Source of the DNA: Flavobacterium sp. CF136
GTDB lineage: Bacteria; Bacteroidota; Bacteroidia; Flavobacteriales; Flavobacteriaceae
NCBI RefSeq assembly: GCF_000282055.1
Contig: NZ_AKJZ01000040.1
Span: forward strand, 62,001-126,000
Reading direction: 5' to 3'
Length of the DNA: 64,000 nt
A program made the translations under genes and the position numbers. Under the pieces are notes generated by a model. It saw only the letters and a program-made list of their open reading frames with translations. It did not search any database and was not told the origin of the DNA. This document shows positions 20,978 to 38,157 of this stretch, one piece after another. Numbering within the stretch: the first letter of the stretch is position 1; every line of letters starts with the position of its first letter.

Positions 20978-21838
20978 ATGGCAAATTTAAAGGAAATCCG
21001 TAATAGAATTACTTCCGTTTCATCGACGATGCAGATTACATCGGCTATGAAAATGGTTTCTGCTGCAAAGCTTAAGAAAGCACAAGATGCAATCACTGCA
21101 ATGCGTCCTTATGCCGAGAAATTAACGGAGTTGTTACAAAATCTTTCTGCTACACTTGAAGGTGAAGTAGGTGGTGATTACACAACACAACGTGAAGTAA
21201 AAAAAGTATTGCTTGTTGCTATAACTTCGAACAGAGGTTTATGTGGTGCATTCAATTCAAATGTTATTAAAGAAATTAAAAACCGTACTCAGTTTTACGC
21301 TGGAAAACAAGTTGATGTTTTTCCAATTGGGAAAAAAGGAAATGATGTTTTAGCCAAAACGCATAAAGTTCACGGTCATCATAATTCAATTTTTGATCAT
21401 TTGACTTTTGAAAATGTTGCAGGAATTGCGGATAATTTGACTGAAAAATTCTTATCAGGCGAATACGACAGAATTGAATTGATTTACAATCAGTTTAAAA
21501 ACGCAGCTACTCAAATCGTTCAAACAGAACAATTTTTACCTTTGGCTCCAATTAAATCTGATACGCCGGTTTCTACTGGTGATTATATTTTTGAACCTTC
21601 TAAAGAAGAAATTGTGTTGACATTGATTCCTAAATCATTAAAAACTCAATTATACAAAGGTATTCGTGACTCATTTGCTTCAGAACATGGAGCGCGTATG
21701 ACAGCAATGCATAAAGCAACTGACAACGCTACTGAATTGAGAAACCAATTAAAATTGACTTACAATAAAGCACGTCAGGCAGCTATTACTAACGAAATCT
21801 TAGAGATTGTTGGTGGAGCAGAAGCTTTGAACGGATAA
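20978..21838 (+). CDS. atpG: F0F1 ATP synthase subunit gamma
   Basis: Central rotor shaft of 286 residues. The N-terminal helix IRNRITSVSSTMQITSAMKM and the C-terminal helix NATELRNQLKLTYNKARQAA (residues 250-269, where the family always has this coiled coil) are both present. The middle domain has AITSNRGLCGAFNSN. Last gene of the operon; a strong terminator begins 17 bases after its stop. No epsilon or beta gene follows. Confidence 0.97.
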   Translation: MANLKEIRNRITSVSSTMQITSAMKMVSAAKLKKAQDAITAMRPYAEKLTELLQNLSATLEGEVGGDYTTQREVKKVLLVAITSNRGLCGAFNSNVIKEIKNRTQFYAGKQVDVFPIGKKGNDVLAKTHKVHGHHNSIFDHLTFENVAGIADNLTEKFLSGEYDRIELIYNQFKNAATQIVQTEQFLPLAPIKSDTPVSTGDYIFEPSKEEIVLTLIPKSLKTQLYKGIRDSFASEHGARMTAMHKATDNATELRNQLKLTYNKARQAAITNEILEIVGGAEALNG

Positions 21839-21855
21839 TATTTGAGATAAAGACA

Positions 21856-21888
21856 AAAAGAGCCGACATAATTTATGTCGGCTCTTTT
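21856..21888 (+). terminator. Terminator of the ATP synthase operon
   Basis: A perfect 15-base stem (AAAAGAGCCGACATA with TATGTCGGCTCTTTT) and a 3-base loop, followed by TATTTTAT. It lies 17 bases after the atpG stop. Classical intrinsic terminator. Confidence 0.95.
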
Positions 21889-22030
21889 ATTTTATATAAA
21901 TTTCAGTTATAATATTGGATTTAATGTTAAAATGGTGATTCCTGAGAAATTGTTTTCCCAAGAATCAATTCCATTTTACACATTCGTTTTAACGGATATT
22001 ATTTCTAATTCCGTTTTGCTTTGTTTTTAT

Positions 22031-22504
22031 GGGAACAAATTAGCTTTATAATCCCAATGCTCTTTTTATTTATAAGGGTTGCTACAGCTCGATCACTCCC
22101 TTGCTTTGTTTTAGGGTACAAATAGCTAAATTTTCCCGGCTCTGTTTTTTTGAGGGTTACTGCAGCTGAATCAATCCCTTTGCTTTGTTTTTTATGGGAA
22201 CAAACTAGCTTTATTAGTCCCAGTGCTCTGTTTTTTTGAGGGTTACTACAGCTGAATCACTCCCTTGCTTTGTTTTATGGTACAATTAGCTAAATTTTCC
22301 TTGCTCTGTTTTTTGAGGGTTACTACAGCTTGTTAATCCCTTGCTTTGTTTTATGGTACACCTAGCTAAATTTTCCTTGCTCTGTTTTTTAAGGGTTACC
22401 TACAGCTGATCAATCCCTTGCTTTGTTTTTTATGGGAACAAACTAGCTTTATCAGTCCCAGTGCTTTGTTTTTTTAAGGGTTACTTTTTAGCTGAATCAA
22501 TCCC
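22031..22504. repeat. Array of twelve alternating hairpin units, period 38-45 bases
   Basis: Each unit starts with GG or GGG, has AGCT near the middle and ends with CC or CCC. Units are joined by a T-rich linker of the form GCTYTGTTTT. GG(G) positions: 22031, 22076, 22114, 22154, 22196, 22240, 22279, 22317, 22355, 22393, 22434 and 22478. Odd units are ACAA-type (subtypes with GGGAACAAA and with TTAGCTAAA); even units contain GGGTTACTACAGCTG or close variants. The linker TTTGTT can pair with AACAAA of odd units, and CTGT with ACAG of even units. No reading frame spans it. The 120 bases before it (from 21889) hold no gene. Confidence 0.85.
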
Positions 22505-22505
22505 T

Positions 22506-22741
22506 GAATTTATTACAATTTTTTTATAAAAGAAATTATCCATTTATATATTACAAATATTCGATTATATTATGAAAGCCACAATACCCACATTTAGTGA
22601 TTTTTAATTTATTTTTCAAAAAAAGGTTTTGTTTTGTAAAAGCTTGTATTACAAATATATAATAGATAAATTTTTAAAAAGTTATATAATTTTTATTATT
22701 TATTACACAATTATAATGTTATAGTTTGATTGAAATAGTGC
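22506..22741. other. AT-rich gap before the acetyltransferase gene
   Basis: About 235 bases of very AT-rich DNA with no frame, no hairpin of note and no repeat unit. It ends in the promoter of the GNAT gene. Confidence 0.5.
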
Positions 22742-22768
22742 TTGAAAATTAAAAGATAAGTATTTTTG
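22742..22768 (+). promoter_or_regulatory. Promoter of the GNAT gene
   Basis: TTG at 22742-22744 and TATTTTTG at 22761-22768 with a 16-base spacer; the ATG follows 23 bases later. Good Bacteroidetes consensus match. Confidence 0.65.
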
Positions 22769-22791
22769 ACTAAATTATTGCTTTAGACAAA

Positions 22792-23238
22792 ATGGACTTA
22801 AAAATAACAGAATTGACAACTATTAAAGAAATGCTGATTGAAATTGATACAATAAGATTTCTTTATCCCAATCTTTCGGCTGAAAAATATGAAAATTATT
22901 TATCAGAAATGATTCCTCATAATTATACTCAGATAGCTGTTTTTGAAAATGATGTTTGTTTAGGAATTACCGGTTGTTGGTCAGCAACCAAATTATGGAC
23001 AGGTAAATATCTTGAAATTGATAATTTTGTTGTACACCCGGAACATCGGTCTAAAGGAATAGGAAAGATGCTGACAGAATATATCGAACAAAAAGCATTA
23101 GATCTGGATTGCAGCAGTATTGTTTTAGATGCTTATACAGAGAATTTTGCAGCACATCGTTTTTATTATAATCAGGGTTATGGACCGCGAGGATTTCATT
23201 TTGTGAAAATTTTGGATGAAAAAAAGTTAACACACTAA
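22792..23238 (+). CDS. GNAT family N-acetyltransferase
   Basis: A 148-residue acetyl-CoA-dependent acyltransferase. The acetyl-CoA binding motif is VHPEHRSKGIGKMLTEYIE (residues 82-100), with RxxGxG as RSKGIG. It is followed by VLDAYTENFAAHRFYYNQGY, which is typical of the fold's last strands. The substrate cannot be inferred. It stands alone with its own promoter, downstream of the hairpin array. Confidence 0.9.
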   Translation: MDLKITELTTIKEMLIEIDTIRFLYPNLSAEKYENYLSEMIPHNYTQIAVFENDVCLGITGCWSATKLWTGKYLEIDNFVVHPEHRSKGIGKMLTEYIEQKALDLDCSSIVLDAYTENFAAHRFYYNQGYGPRGFHFVKILDEKKLTH

Positions 23239-36864: not shown

Positions 36865-38157
36865 ATGAAAAATAAATTAAAAAGAATCCTGTTTACAATT
36901 GCGGGAGTGTTATTTACAATTGCAATACAATCTCAACAAATAGGAGATGGATTCGCTAGTGAAATTAATAATTTTACAGTGCCACTTAGTTCAGGCTGTT
37001 ATAATGGACTTAACCCAATTGGAACATTGCCAGAAAATGGTTGGCAGCACTTGTTAGTAGTTAGACATCCAAATGGGACTAATAATTATCAATTACAGAT
37101 AGCTTCATCATTAACAACAAATGATAAATTATATTTCAGAAAATTAGCATCTGGAGCAGCAACTTCGATAAATCCAAATTGGTATGAACTAGCAACTCGA
37201 GGAACAAATAATTTTATTGGAAATCAAACCATTAGTGGAAACATTGGTATTGGTACAACTGCTCCAAATTCCAAATTAACGATTAGATCAGGCAATACAG
37301 GTGTAAGCATTCATCCAGGAAACAGTCCATATTTTGGAACTTTAGCTTTTAATAGAGAAGCGGCTACAGGTGAGATATTTGATCCCACCGGTCAAGCTTT
37401 TCAAATAAATAATGGAGGCGCAGATAAAAATCTTCATTTTCAAGTTTATAATAATAATGGAGCACAAATCACAGACAATGCGTTAGTAATTAGCGGAACC
37501 AATGGTAATATTGGTATTGGTACACCTTCTCCAAATTCCAAATTAACTATTAAATCAGGTAATACAGGTACAGGTGTAAGTATTCATCCTAGAGTCGATT
37601 CATCATATTTTGGAACTTTAGCTTTTAATAGAGAAGCGGCTACAGGTGAGATATTTGACTCTACCGGTCAAGCTTTTCAAATAAATAATGGAGGTGCAGA
37701 TAAAAATCTTCATTTTCAAGTTTATAATAATAATGGAGCACAAATCACAGATAATGCGTTAGTAATTAGCGGAACCAATGGTAATATTGGTATAGGAATT
37801 TCAAATCCAACCAATAAATTAGATGTAAATGGTACAATTCATTCCAGAGAAGTAAAAGTTGATCTGACGGGTTGGTCTGATTTTGTTTTCAAAAAAGAAT
37901 ATGAGTTGCCAACACTTGAAGAAGTTGAAAAACATATTGCTGAAAAGGGCCATTTAGAAAATATTCCAAGTGAGGAAGATGTTTTAAAGAATGGAATTAA
38001 TTTGGGAGAAATGAATACTAAACTTCTACAAAAAATAGAGGAGTTGACGCTTTATACTATTGAACAAAATAAGAAAATCCAAAAGCTTCAAGAGGAGAAT
38101 AAAAAATTTCTGGATATAGAAAAAAGACTGGAAAAAATTGAAAAAGAGTCAAAATAA
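36865..38157 (+). CDS. Secreted protein with tandem duplicated beta domain and intramolecular-chaperone-like tail
   Basis: A 430-residue protein with a signal peptide (MKNKLKRILFTIAGVLFTIAIQS). Residues about 25-115 resemble a phage-type knob domain. Then come two nearly identical units of about 90 residues (GIGTTAPNSKLTI... and GIGTPSPNSKLTI...) that match closely at DNA level (37243-37509 and 37510-37785). The C-terminus (KEYELPTLEEVEKHIAEKGH, then a coiled coil) resembles the S74-type tail fibre ends common in Bacteroidetes surface proteins, without an obvious catalytic motif. The start at 36865 is chosen because the longer frame overlaps the MATE gene. Confidence 0.72.
   Translation: MKNKLKRILFTIAGVLFTIAIQSQQIGDGFASEINNFTVPLSSGCYNGLNPIGTLPENGWQHLLVVRHPNGTNNYQLQIASSLTTNDKLYFRKLASGAATSINPNWYELATRGTNNFIGNQTISGNIGIGTTAPNSKLTIRSGNTGVSIHPGNSPYFGTLAFNREAATGEIFDPTGQAFQINNGGADKNLHFQVYNNNGAQITDNALVISGTNGNIGIGTPSPNSKLTIKSGNTGTGVSIHPRVDSSYFGTLAFNREAATGEIFDSTGQAFQINNGGADKNLHFQVYNNNGAQITDNALVISGTNGNIGIGISNPTNKLDVNGTIHSREVKVDLTGWSDFVFKKEYELPTLEEVEKHIAEKGHLENIPSEEDVLKNGINLGEMNTKLLQKIEELTLYTIEQNKKIQKLQEENKKFLDIEKRLEKIEKESK

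Follow-up and report, generated by a model that had tools for sequence, protein, structure and literature searches.

A tandem array of two alternating pseudoknot-like units in Flavobacterium: a candidate structured RNA gene resembling ToxI and STAXI RNAs

The preQ1-I and SAM-II aptamers are small H-type pseudoknots in which an A-rich loop lies against the first stem. In CsrB the sites are GGA sequences in hairpin loops, and at the level of DNA the BIME units alternate in orientation and are scattered genome-wide. According to PMC8860590, ToxIN loci are composed of a promoter, a tandem pseudoknot array and a hairpin 3′ end, in that order, and PMC4627078 gives a repeat of 36 bases for ToxI and of 45 nt for CptI. 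The STAXI RNA (PMC2864571) is a pseudoknot occurring in tandem, in two or usually three copies, near genes for DNA-handling proteins and often with UUCG tetraloops. In the available parts of the literature, including PMC9723704, PMC4627078, PMC8860590 and PMC2864571, no array of the kind reported here is described, and an earlier report in print is possible. Judged from its sequence, the array is a variant of the known tandem pseudoknot RNAs (ToxI, STAXI) and, on the tests made, a member of neither.

The array lies in a stretch of 64,000 nucleotides from Flavobacterium sp. CF136 (the window). Twelve abutting units of two types, e and o, follow each other in strict alternation at 22018-22504. 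An earlier note on this DNA had recognised the twelve alternating units; the start that it gave, 22031, is to be corrected, as the array begins 13 bases earlier at 22018, and its unit size of 38-45 bases is replaced by a core of 34-42 nt and a start-to-start pitch of 36-45 nt. Read on the minus strand, the e units are located at 22463-22504 (unit 1, with a degenerate P2 helix as defined below), 22379-22417 (unit 3), 22303-22340 (unit 5), 22225-22264 (unit 7), 22139-22178 (unit 9) and 22059-22100 (unit 11, with a degenerate tail). The o units on the same strand are found at 22420-22459 (unit 2), 22343-22376 (unit 4), 22267-22300 (unit 6), 22182-22221 (unit 8), 22103-22137 (unit 10) and 22018-22055 (unit 12, the last). 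TRF scored the array at 565 for a 164-base period and at 443 for a 76-base period. No ORF of at least 60 aa overlaps it, in agreement with the earlier observation that no reading frame crosses the repeats, and a coding role was rejected on this ground. Its distinction from CRISPR arrays, which combine identical repeats with unique spacers, also stands: the linkers are 0-8 nt long in 1013 of 1064 unit-to-unit steps and the units vary along much of their length. Elsewhere in the window, at 37236-37793, a 276-base sequence is repeated in tandem (2.1 copies with 90% matches).

On the minus strand the units follow the pattern x-GGG-loop1-GCU-n-(U)GU-AA or U-CCC-x′-A-rich-AC(A)n-AGC, and it is quite likely that each unit folds as an H-type pseudoknot with helices P1 and P2 and an A-rich third loop. 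P1 would be formed by GG(G) with CC(C) plus one outer pair x-x′, and P2 by the loop (GCU..GU) with the unit's own tail (AC..AGC). The G and C runs of P1 are of equal length in 337 of 346 distinct units (315 GGG/CCC, 21 GG/CC and 1 GGGG/CCCC), and the outer pair is Watson-Crick in 300/337 where 170 were expected (A-T 203, T-A 92, C-G 5). In the window, the joint replacement of GGG/CCC by GG/CC was confirmed in both plus-strand units for which it had been reported, 22267-22300 and 22343-22376 (units 6 and 4). The array and the predicted P1 helix are strongly supported by these comparisons.

Other matched changes in the earlier note had to be relocated. The window does show the inner arm changing from ATTA/TAAT to ACTA/TAGT, but this arm is broken in the unit at 22420-22459 and is not kept in relatives, as in GGGAACAAACAAGCTTTATCAGTCCC (the reverse complement of a relative's unit). 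The linker pairing proposed for even units, CTGT with ACAG, is not a conserved register, the tail pairing in relatives with the (T)GT directly before AACCC. Covariation was examined in relatives and not in the window alone: the P1 outer pair, the length of the G and C runs and two pairs of P2 covary, and slid controls do not.

In 53 of the 54 e units whose loop base z is C, the tail carries a G at −7, −6 or −5, compared with only 6 of the 158 in which z is T (213 e units in all). In 66 e representatives the z-a pair of P2 is Watson-Crick in 60 (46.6 expected) and the y-b pair in 51 (39.4 expected), values reached in 0 of 2000 permutations, which ignore relatedness. Three slid controls remained at expectation, and the x-c pair showed no covariation in the same 66 representatives. 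All three pairs form in 39 of 73 distinct loop-tail combinations (500 shuffles gave a mean of 28.7 and a maximum of 36); in the other 34 they do not all form, some of the tails having been clipped by the parser. Two-sided changes were UGU/ACA, UGC/GCA, GGU/ACC and UAC/GUA, and we judge three to five changes in P2 to be independent. P2 is nearly invariant in o units, and the first e unit of many arrays is without a good P2. Units that have lost GCT or AG[CT] are absent from the counts, as the parser requires both, which leaves no fair test of GCU:AGC pairing within P2. These results support a P2 helix in e units, so that the tandem pseudoknots characteristic of ToxIN and CptIN loci would have their counterpart here in the covariation of P1 and, in e units, of P2.

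Alignment-based counting gave a weaker signal. When 43 of the 51 e representatives were aligned with MAFFT, 89.3% of cells were paired versus 87.3% after shuffling (1/500), 2 pairs had changed on both sides (235/500) with 4 such cells (70/500), and the inner helix of P2 was 64.6% paired; the weakness of this count is partly due to misplaced gaps in the tails. Nested folding, a method to which pseudoknots are invisible, gave the array no advantage over shuffled sequences, with z values of 0.29 and 1.11 for the two strands.

Bases flanking the AGCT covary as a palindrome in e units (CAGCTG, TAGCTA), for which the pseudoknot gives no account. The x-AGCU-x′ positions are Watson-Crick in 37 of 66 e units (23.4 expected) and in 8 of 36 o units (7.6 expected), the latter being no excess. 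This covariation could mean loop-loop contact between units.

The compact units, the short linkers and the presence of two distinct repeated unit types would suit a precursor of trans-acting small RNAs, cut into single units that pair with mRNAs through their loops. Against this, the most constant bases are those of the helices and the A-rich third loop, the rest of the loops being variable in both length and sequence. We regard such a precursor as unlikely.

TAnnTTTG occupies −12 to −5 of F. psychrophilum sigma-A promoters (PMC9723704). Of 94 flanks that differ within their last 80 nt, 82 carry the same box on the minus strand no more than 25 nt upstream of the array, and in 78 of these 82 it stands exactly 7 nt before the first G. 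Equal windows further upstream had it in only 10 of 470 cases, and beyond the far end of the array, on the complementary strand, it was seen in 1 of 92. With the box at −12 to −5, as that source places it, the predicted RNA start falls about 3 nt before the first GGG. A promoter before the repeats, as at ToxIN and CptIN loci, is thus indicated in these 82 flanks, the box of the window itself being imperfect and further away. Three promoter classes were distinguished, and all 82 boxes come from class 1 flanks plus four near-class-1 flanks; class 2 (4 flanks, including that of the window) and class 3 (6 flanks) have no TAnnTTTG in the last 25 nt. The bipartite class 1 motif, searched as an exact pattern that misses degenerate copies, occurs once per genome in 7 of 8 genomes, always beside the array, and a class 1 regulon was rejected on this result. 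The eighth genome (G138), which is without the motif, is also not among the array-bearing genomes.

In the window the class 2 motif ATCACTAAATGTGGGTATTG is located at 22582-22601 and the probable −7 box of the array promoter, the imperfect TAnnTTTG AATATTTG, at 22554-22561, both on the minus strand; the last base of this box (TATTTG) is 28 nt from the motif. Further upstream on the same strand, TATATTTG at 22652-22659 is an exact TAnnTTTG sigma-A −7 box; it belongs to a degenerate class 1 promoter that is not directly followed by an array. Four further matches to the class 2 motif occur in the same genome, two of them exact and the others with 1 and 2 mismatches; the exact ones and the one with 1 mismatch are oriented towards a gene start, and the site at 22582-22601 is a likely, putative binding site of a regulator. 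The motif ATCACYAAANGTGGGTATTG, mismatched in one copy, precedes three other genes of this genome (L177, L178 and L180).

Downstream, two 3′ hairpins are predicted on the minus strand in the fold of 21915-22016 (z −7.0 for the pair): hairpin 1 at 21991-22015 and hairpin 2, AAAATGG..GATTC paired with GAATCACCATTTT, at 21923-21984. Of 92 distinct 3′ flanks, 71 have the long hairpin (AAAATGG..GATTC/GAATC..CCATTTT). A perfect inverted repeat at 21856-21888, presumably the atpG terminator and able to act on both strands, lies outside the RNA gene.

A comparison of G-U with A-C mismatches leans against the minus strand at some pairs. The outer P1 pair has 1 G-U and 13 A-C and does not favour this strand, and in P2 of e units the counts are 0 versus 24 at z-a, 2 versus 17 at y-b and 16 versus 6 at x-c; part of the 24 A-C pairs at z-a become C-G if the tail is shifted by one base. 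The working strand is most likely minus, and in relatives the assignment of strand and promoter is strongly supported. The array very probably encodes a structured minus-strand RNA. Strand and pseudoknot topology are additions to the earlier reading of the locus.

The left neighbour of the array, at 20978-21838 on the plus strand and named from sequence alone, is atpG, antiparallel to the RNA; the right neighbour, at 22792-23238 on the plus strand, encodes a GNAT acetyltransferase (Pfam PF00583) and is divergent from it. A 19-base gapped pattern search of named genomes returned 97 stretches, 91 of them with a parsed array (at least two records gave two stretches each). atpG is present in 74 of these 91, and in 74/74 the A-rich strand of the array is antiparallel to it; in 68 of these 74 the GNAT gene is found as well. 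GNAT alone is present in fourteen of the 91 stretches and neither gene in three, and those stretches may end too soon. In 20 genomes without an array match the search for the GNAT gene gave twelve loci, six showing both atpG and GNAT and six with no atpG within about 1.5 kb on each side. The gap between the two genes is 85-134 bases in 5 of the 6 measurable cases, with apparently little beyond a terminator-like inverted repeat. Because the gaps of array-less relatives are short, the array is best seen as an inserted gene rather than a component of the atp operon. The sixth gap (L193) is 1083 bases long and holds other sequence; the atpG-GNAT gap may accept insertions repeatedly. In two genomes (L022/L051 and L023/L052) more than one array is present at the locus, a class 1 array being followed by a class 2 promoter with an array of its own.

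Position and orientation bear on a role at the level of DNA, where the repeats would be an operator array, a single-stranded DNA structure or a REP-like palindromic element. The units are GC-bounded with AGCT centres, their base-pair covariation would equally fit single-stranded DNA, and the x-AGCT-x′ palindrome covaries in e units, though not in o units. As in BIME/REP elements, two hairpin types alternate in intergenic DNA; unlike BIMEs, the units of the array share one orientation and occupy one locus in their own genome. In this genome (5.1 Mb) all eight matches at E < 1e-6 fall in this array, the next best has an E value of 0.10, and no second array or dispersed copy was found, so that the dispersion typical of REP/BIME elements is missing. 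Moreover, the 36-45 nt pitch has no helical phase, the promoter box stands at one end only, and the orientation to atpG is constant in the 74 stretches containing this gene. Both alternatives offered by the earlier note, an operator array and a palindromic element family, are disfavoured on these grounds and fit worse than its first option, and a DNA-level element of any of these kinds appears improbable. A repeated structured RNA under selection for folding is supported by the conservation at genus level, by the promoter and 3′ end fixed to most arrays and by the compensatory changes.

A sequence-only model was derived from 28 units, after 12 irregular or near-duplicate ones had been removed from the 40 distinct units parsed by script. 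With this model, arrays were detected in 112 of 398 sampled Flavobacterium genomes at E ≤ 0.001, and among good assemblies in 108 of 333. This search scored 15 candidates per genome under strict filters, so that unit counts are low and a diverged array may have been missed in some of the genomes counted as array-less. Across the family, 299 genomes representing 236 genera were sampled (E ≤ 1e-4), and matches came only from the genome of the window and from one other (G083), both Flavobacterium; the other 235 genera gave no array in this one sample at that threshold. Among the titles listed, which cover 80 of the 97 pattern stretches, those of array stretches name Flavobacterium, three Flavobacteriaceae and one [Flexibacter] sp. 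ATCC 35103; F. johnsoniae strain CI04 is among the many named species with an array. The six remaining pattern stretches, from other taxa, were dismissed as single chance matches without a unit by nhmmer at E ≤ 1, and five pattern matches in viral contigs likewise held no unit at this threshold. Phages and plasmids gave no array match at E ≤ 1e-5, and a mobile element of phages or plasmids was rejected accordingly. The structured RNA gene is apparently restricted to the genus Flavobacterium.

Alternation is the rule among the 159 parsed stretches, in which repeat fetches of the same arrays are counted: 131 are perfectly alternating, an e unit comes first in 158 and an o unit last in 149, and the commonest layout is three e-o pairs (77/159). 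Some breaks in alternation are units overlooked by the parser (gaps of 46-52 nt), and three stretches reading eeeeeeeo are either real exceptions or parsing faults. Up to 24 units were parsed in one stretch. Species differ in the number of pairs, from one to many, as neutral tandem duplication without function would produce, but the promoter, the 3′ hairpins, the unit types and the paired changes are kept across many species, which makes a functionless array very improbable. The functional element that is repeated appears to be the e-o pair rather than the individual unit.

ToxI and CptI are the closest in form. The array shares with them tandem repeats of about 36-45 nt, predicted H-type pseudoknots with single-stranded ends, a probable promoter before the repeats and a predicted hairpin 3′ end after them. 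Unlike ToxI and CptI, it alternates between two types of unit, which mostly come as whole pairs and number up to 24 as parsed in one stretch; it occupies a chromosomal site common to many species, and no toxin gene lies behind it, the place being taken by the antiparallel atpG. ToxN (PF13958) was over the cut-off in 0 of 398 Flavobacterium genomes, with two weak sub-threshold matches in broken frames, and CptN (NF047359) was found in 0 of 18 array-bearing genomes; 14 control genomes were also without a match for either, so absence is not proven. Membership in type III toxin-antitoxin systems was rejected with these searches empty or below cut-off, and the RNA is not filed as such because no cognate toxin was found. 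An orphan or trans-acting antitoxin, descended from a ToxI-, CptI- or TenpI-like locus and neutralising a toxin encoded elsewhere or borne by a phage, would account for the order of promoter, tandem pseudoknots and hairpin 3′ end as given for ToxIN in PMC8860590, and for a unit size near the 36-base ToxI and 45-nt CptI repeats of PMC4627078. The missing toxin ORF behind the array and the outcome of the ToxN and CptN searches, within the limit set by the controls, argue against such descent, which we consider unlikely.

The array resembles STAXI, as described in PMC2864571, in its tandemly repeated pseudoknot and differs in that UUCG is not regular, TTCG occurring in a few units only. The STAXI covariance model gave no row on 21500-23000 (E ≤ 1) or on seven loci (E ≤ 0.1). 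More generally, Rfam 15 returned nothing at gathering score for these same regions and thresholds, and the scan of 21500-23000 gave no row at all inside the array.

Arrays are also found near bacteriocin-like genes. At five loci in four genomes (L010, L016, L056, L067 and L068) paralogous units stand just before short genes on the same strand. The products of these genes start with MNLxxxNLVELNxQEVQExxGG (GG-leader, bacteriocin-like), and the promoter is a different one, AGTTTTG..AAGACGTT. The class 3 promoters belong to these arrays in bacteriocin-like clusters; at a sixth class 3 array (L040) no such peptide gene was found among ORFs of at least 40 aa in the available stretch. The arrays range from one parsed unit (L067, L068) up to seven or eight. 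Neighbouring genes encode an HlyD-family protein and an Rce1-like protease at L056 and an AraC-type regulator at L068. Four peptides were scanned, one of them the product of a second small gene at L056; three resemble BlpC or class IIb bacteriocin models, in every case with a score under the cut-off.

This arrangement, with one array group directly before peptide genes on the same strand, is what a tandem ligand-sensing leader of preQ1-I or SAM-II-like pseudoknots might show, and the array would have the topology and the A-rich third loop of those riboswitches. It is unlike them in its long tandem arrays, with two alternating types and up to 24 parsed units per stretch, and at the atpG locus the strand concerned carries no gene downstream of it; no Rfam match exceeded the gathering score in the window or at the seven loci. 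A ligand-sensing leader is thus highly improbable.

The best explanation as a whole, to which we give a probability of roughly 0.6, is a predicted stand-alone structured non-coding RNA gene acting as a multivalent binding platform. The gene would be transcribed from the minus strand at about 22550-21920, as an insertion between atpG and the GNAT gene, and its RNA would consist of six pairs of H-type pseudoknots (e, o) arranged head to tail, with short linkers between them and two 3′ hairpins at the end. By analogy with known systems, each e-o pair may serve as a binding site for an RNA-binding protein whose gene lies elsewhere, or be excised by it, and the copy number may set the amount of protein held, as with ToxI repeats or CsrB-type decoys. 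If the e-o pair is the repeating unit, a dimeric partner is suggested; no partner protein was found. The many repeated structural sites resemble those of CsrB/RsmZ decoy RNAs and are suited to protein titration, and unlike CsrB the array has its G run in a stem. The RNA is predicted to work most like the ToxI RNA of type III toxin-antitoxins. A decoy or processed-antitoxin mode of action is put forward tentatively, its main rivals being the trans-acting base-pairing RNA and the orphan antitoxin sensu stricto. It is a more speculative and rather doubtful step to read the array as a functional relative of type III antitoxins that is fixed in the chromosome and acts in trans. Processed pseudoknot heterodimers would then titrate an unlinked toxin or defence effector, the number of pairs would be the dose, and paralogous arrays under different promoters, one group of them in bacteriocin-like clusters, would couple the effector to other programmes.

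To our knowledge, few RNA-binding partners of small RNAs are known in the phylum of Flavobacterium, and the alternation of units in pairs gives a specific hint of a dimeric partner. If the proposed reading is true, more than a quarter of the sampled Flavobacterium genomes would carry an undescribed multi-pseudoknot RNA, mostly at one site, and tandem pseudoknot RNAs of the ToxI kind would exist outside toxin-antitoxin loci.
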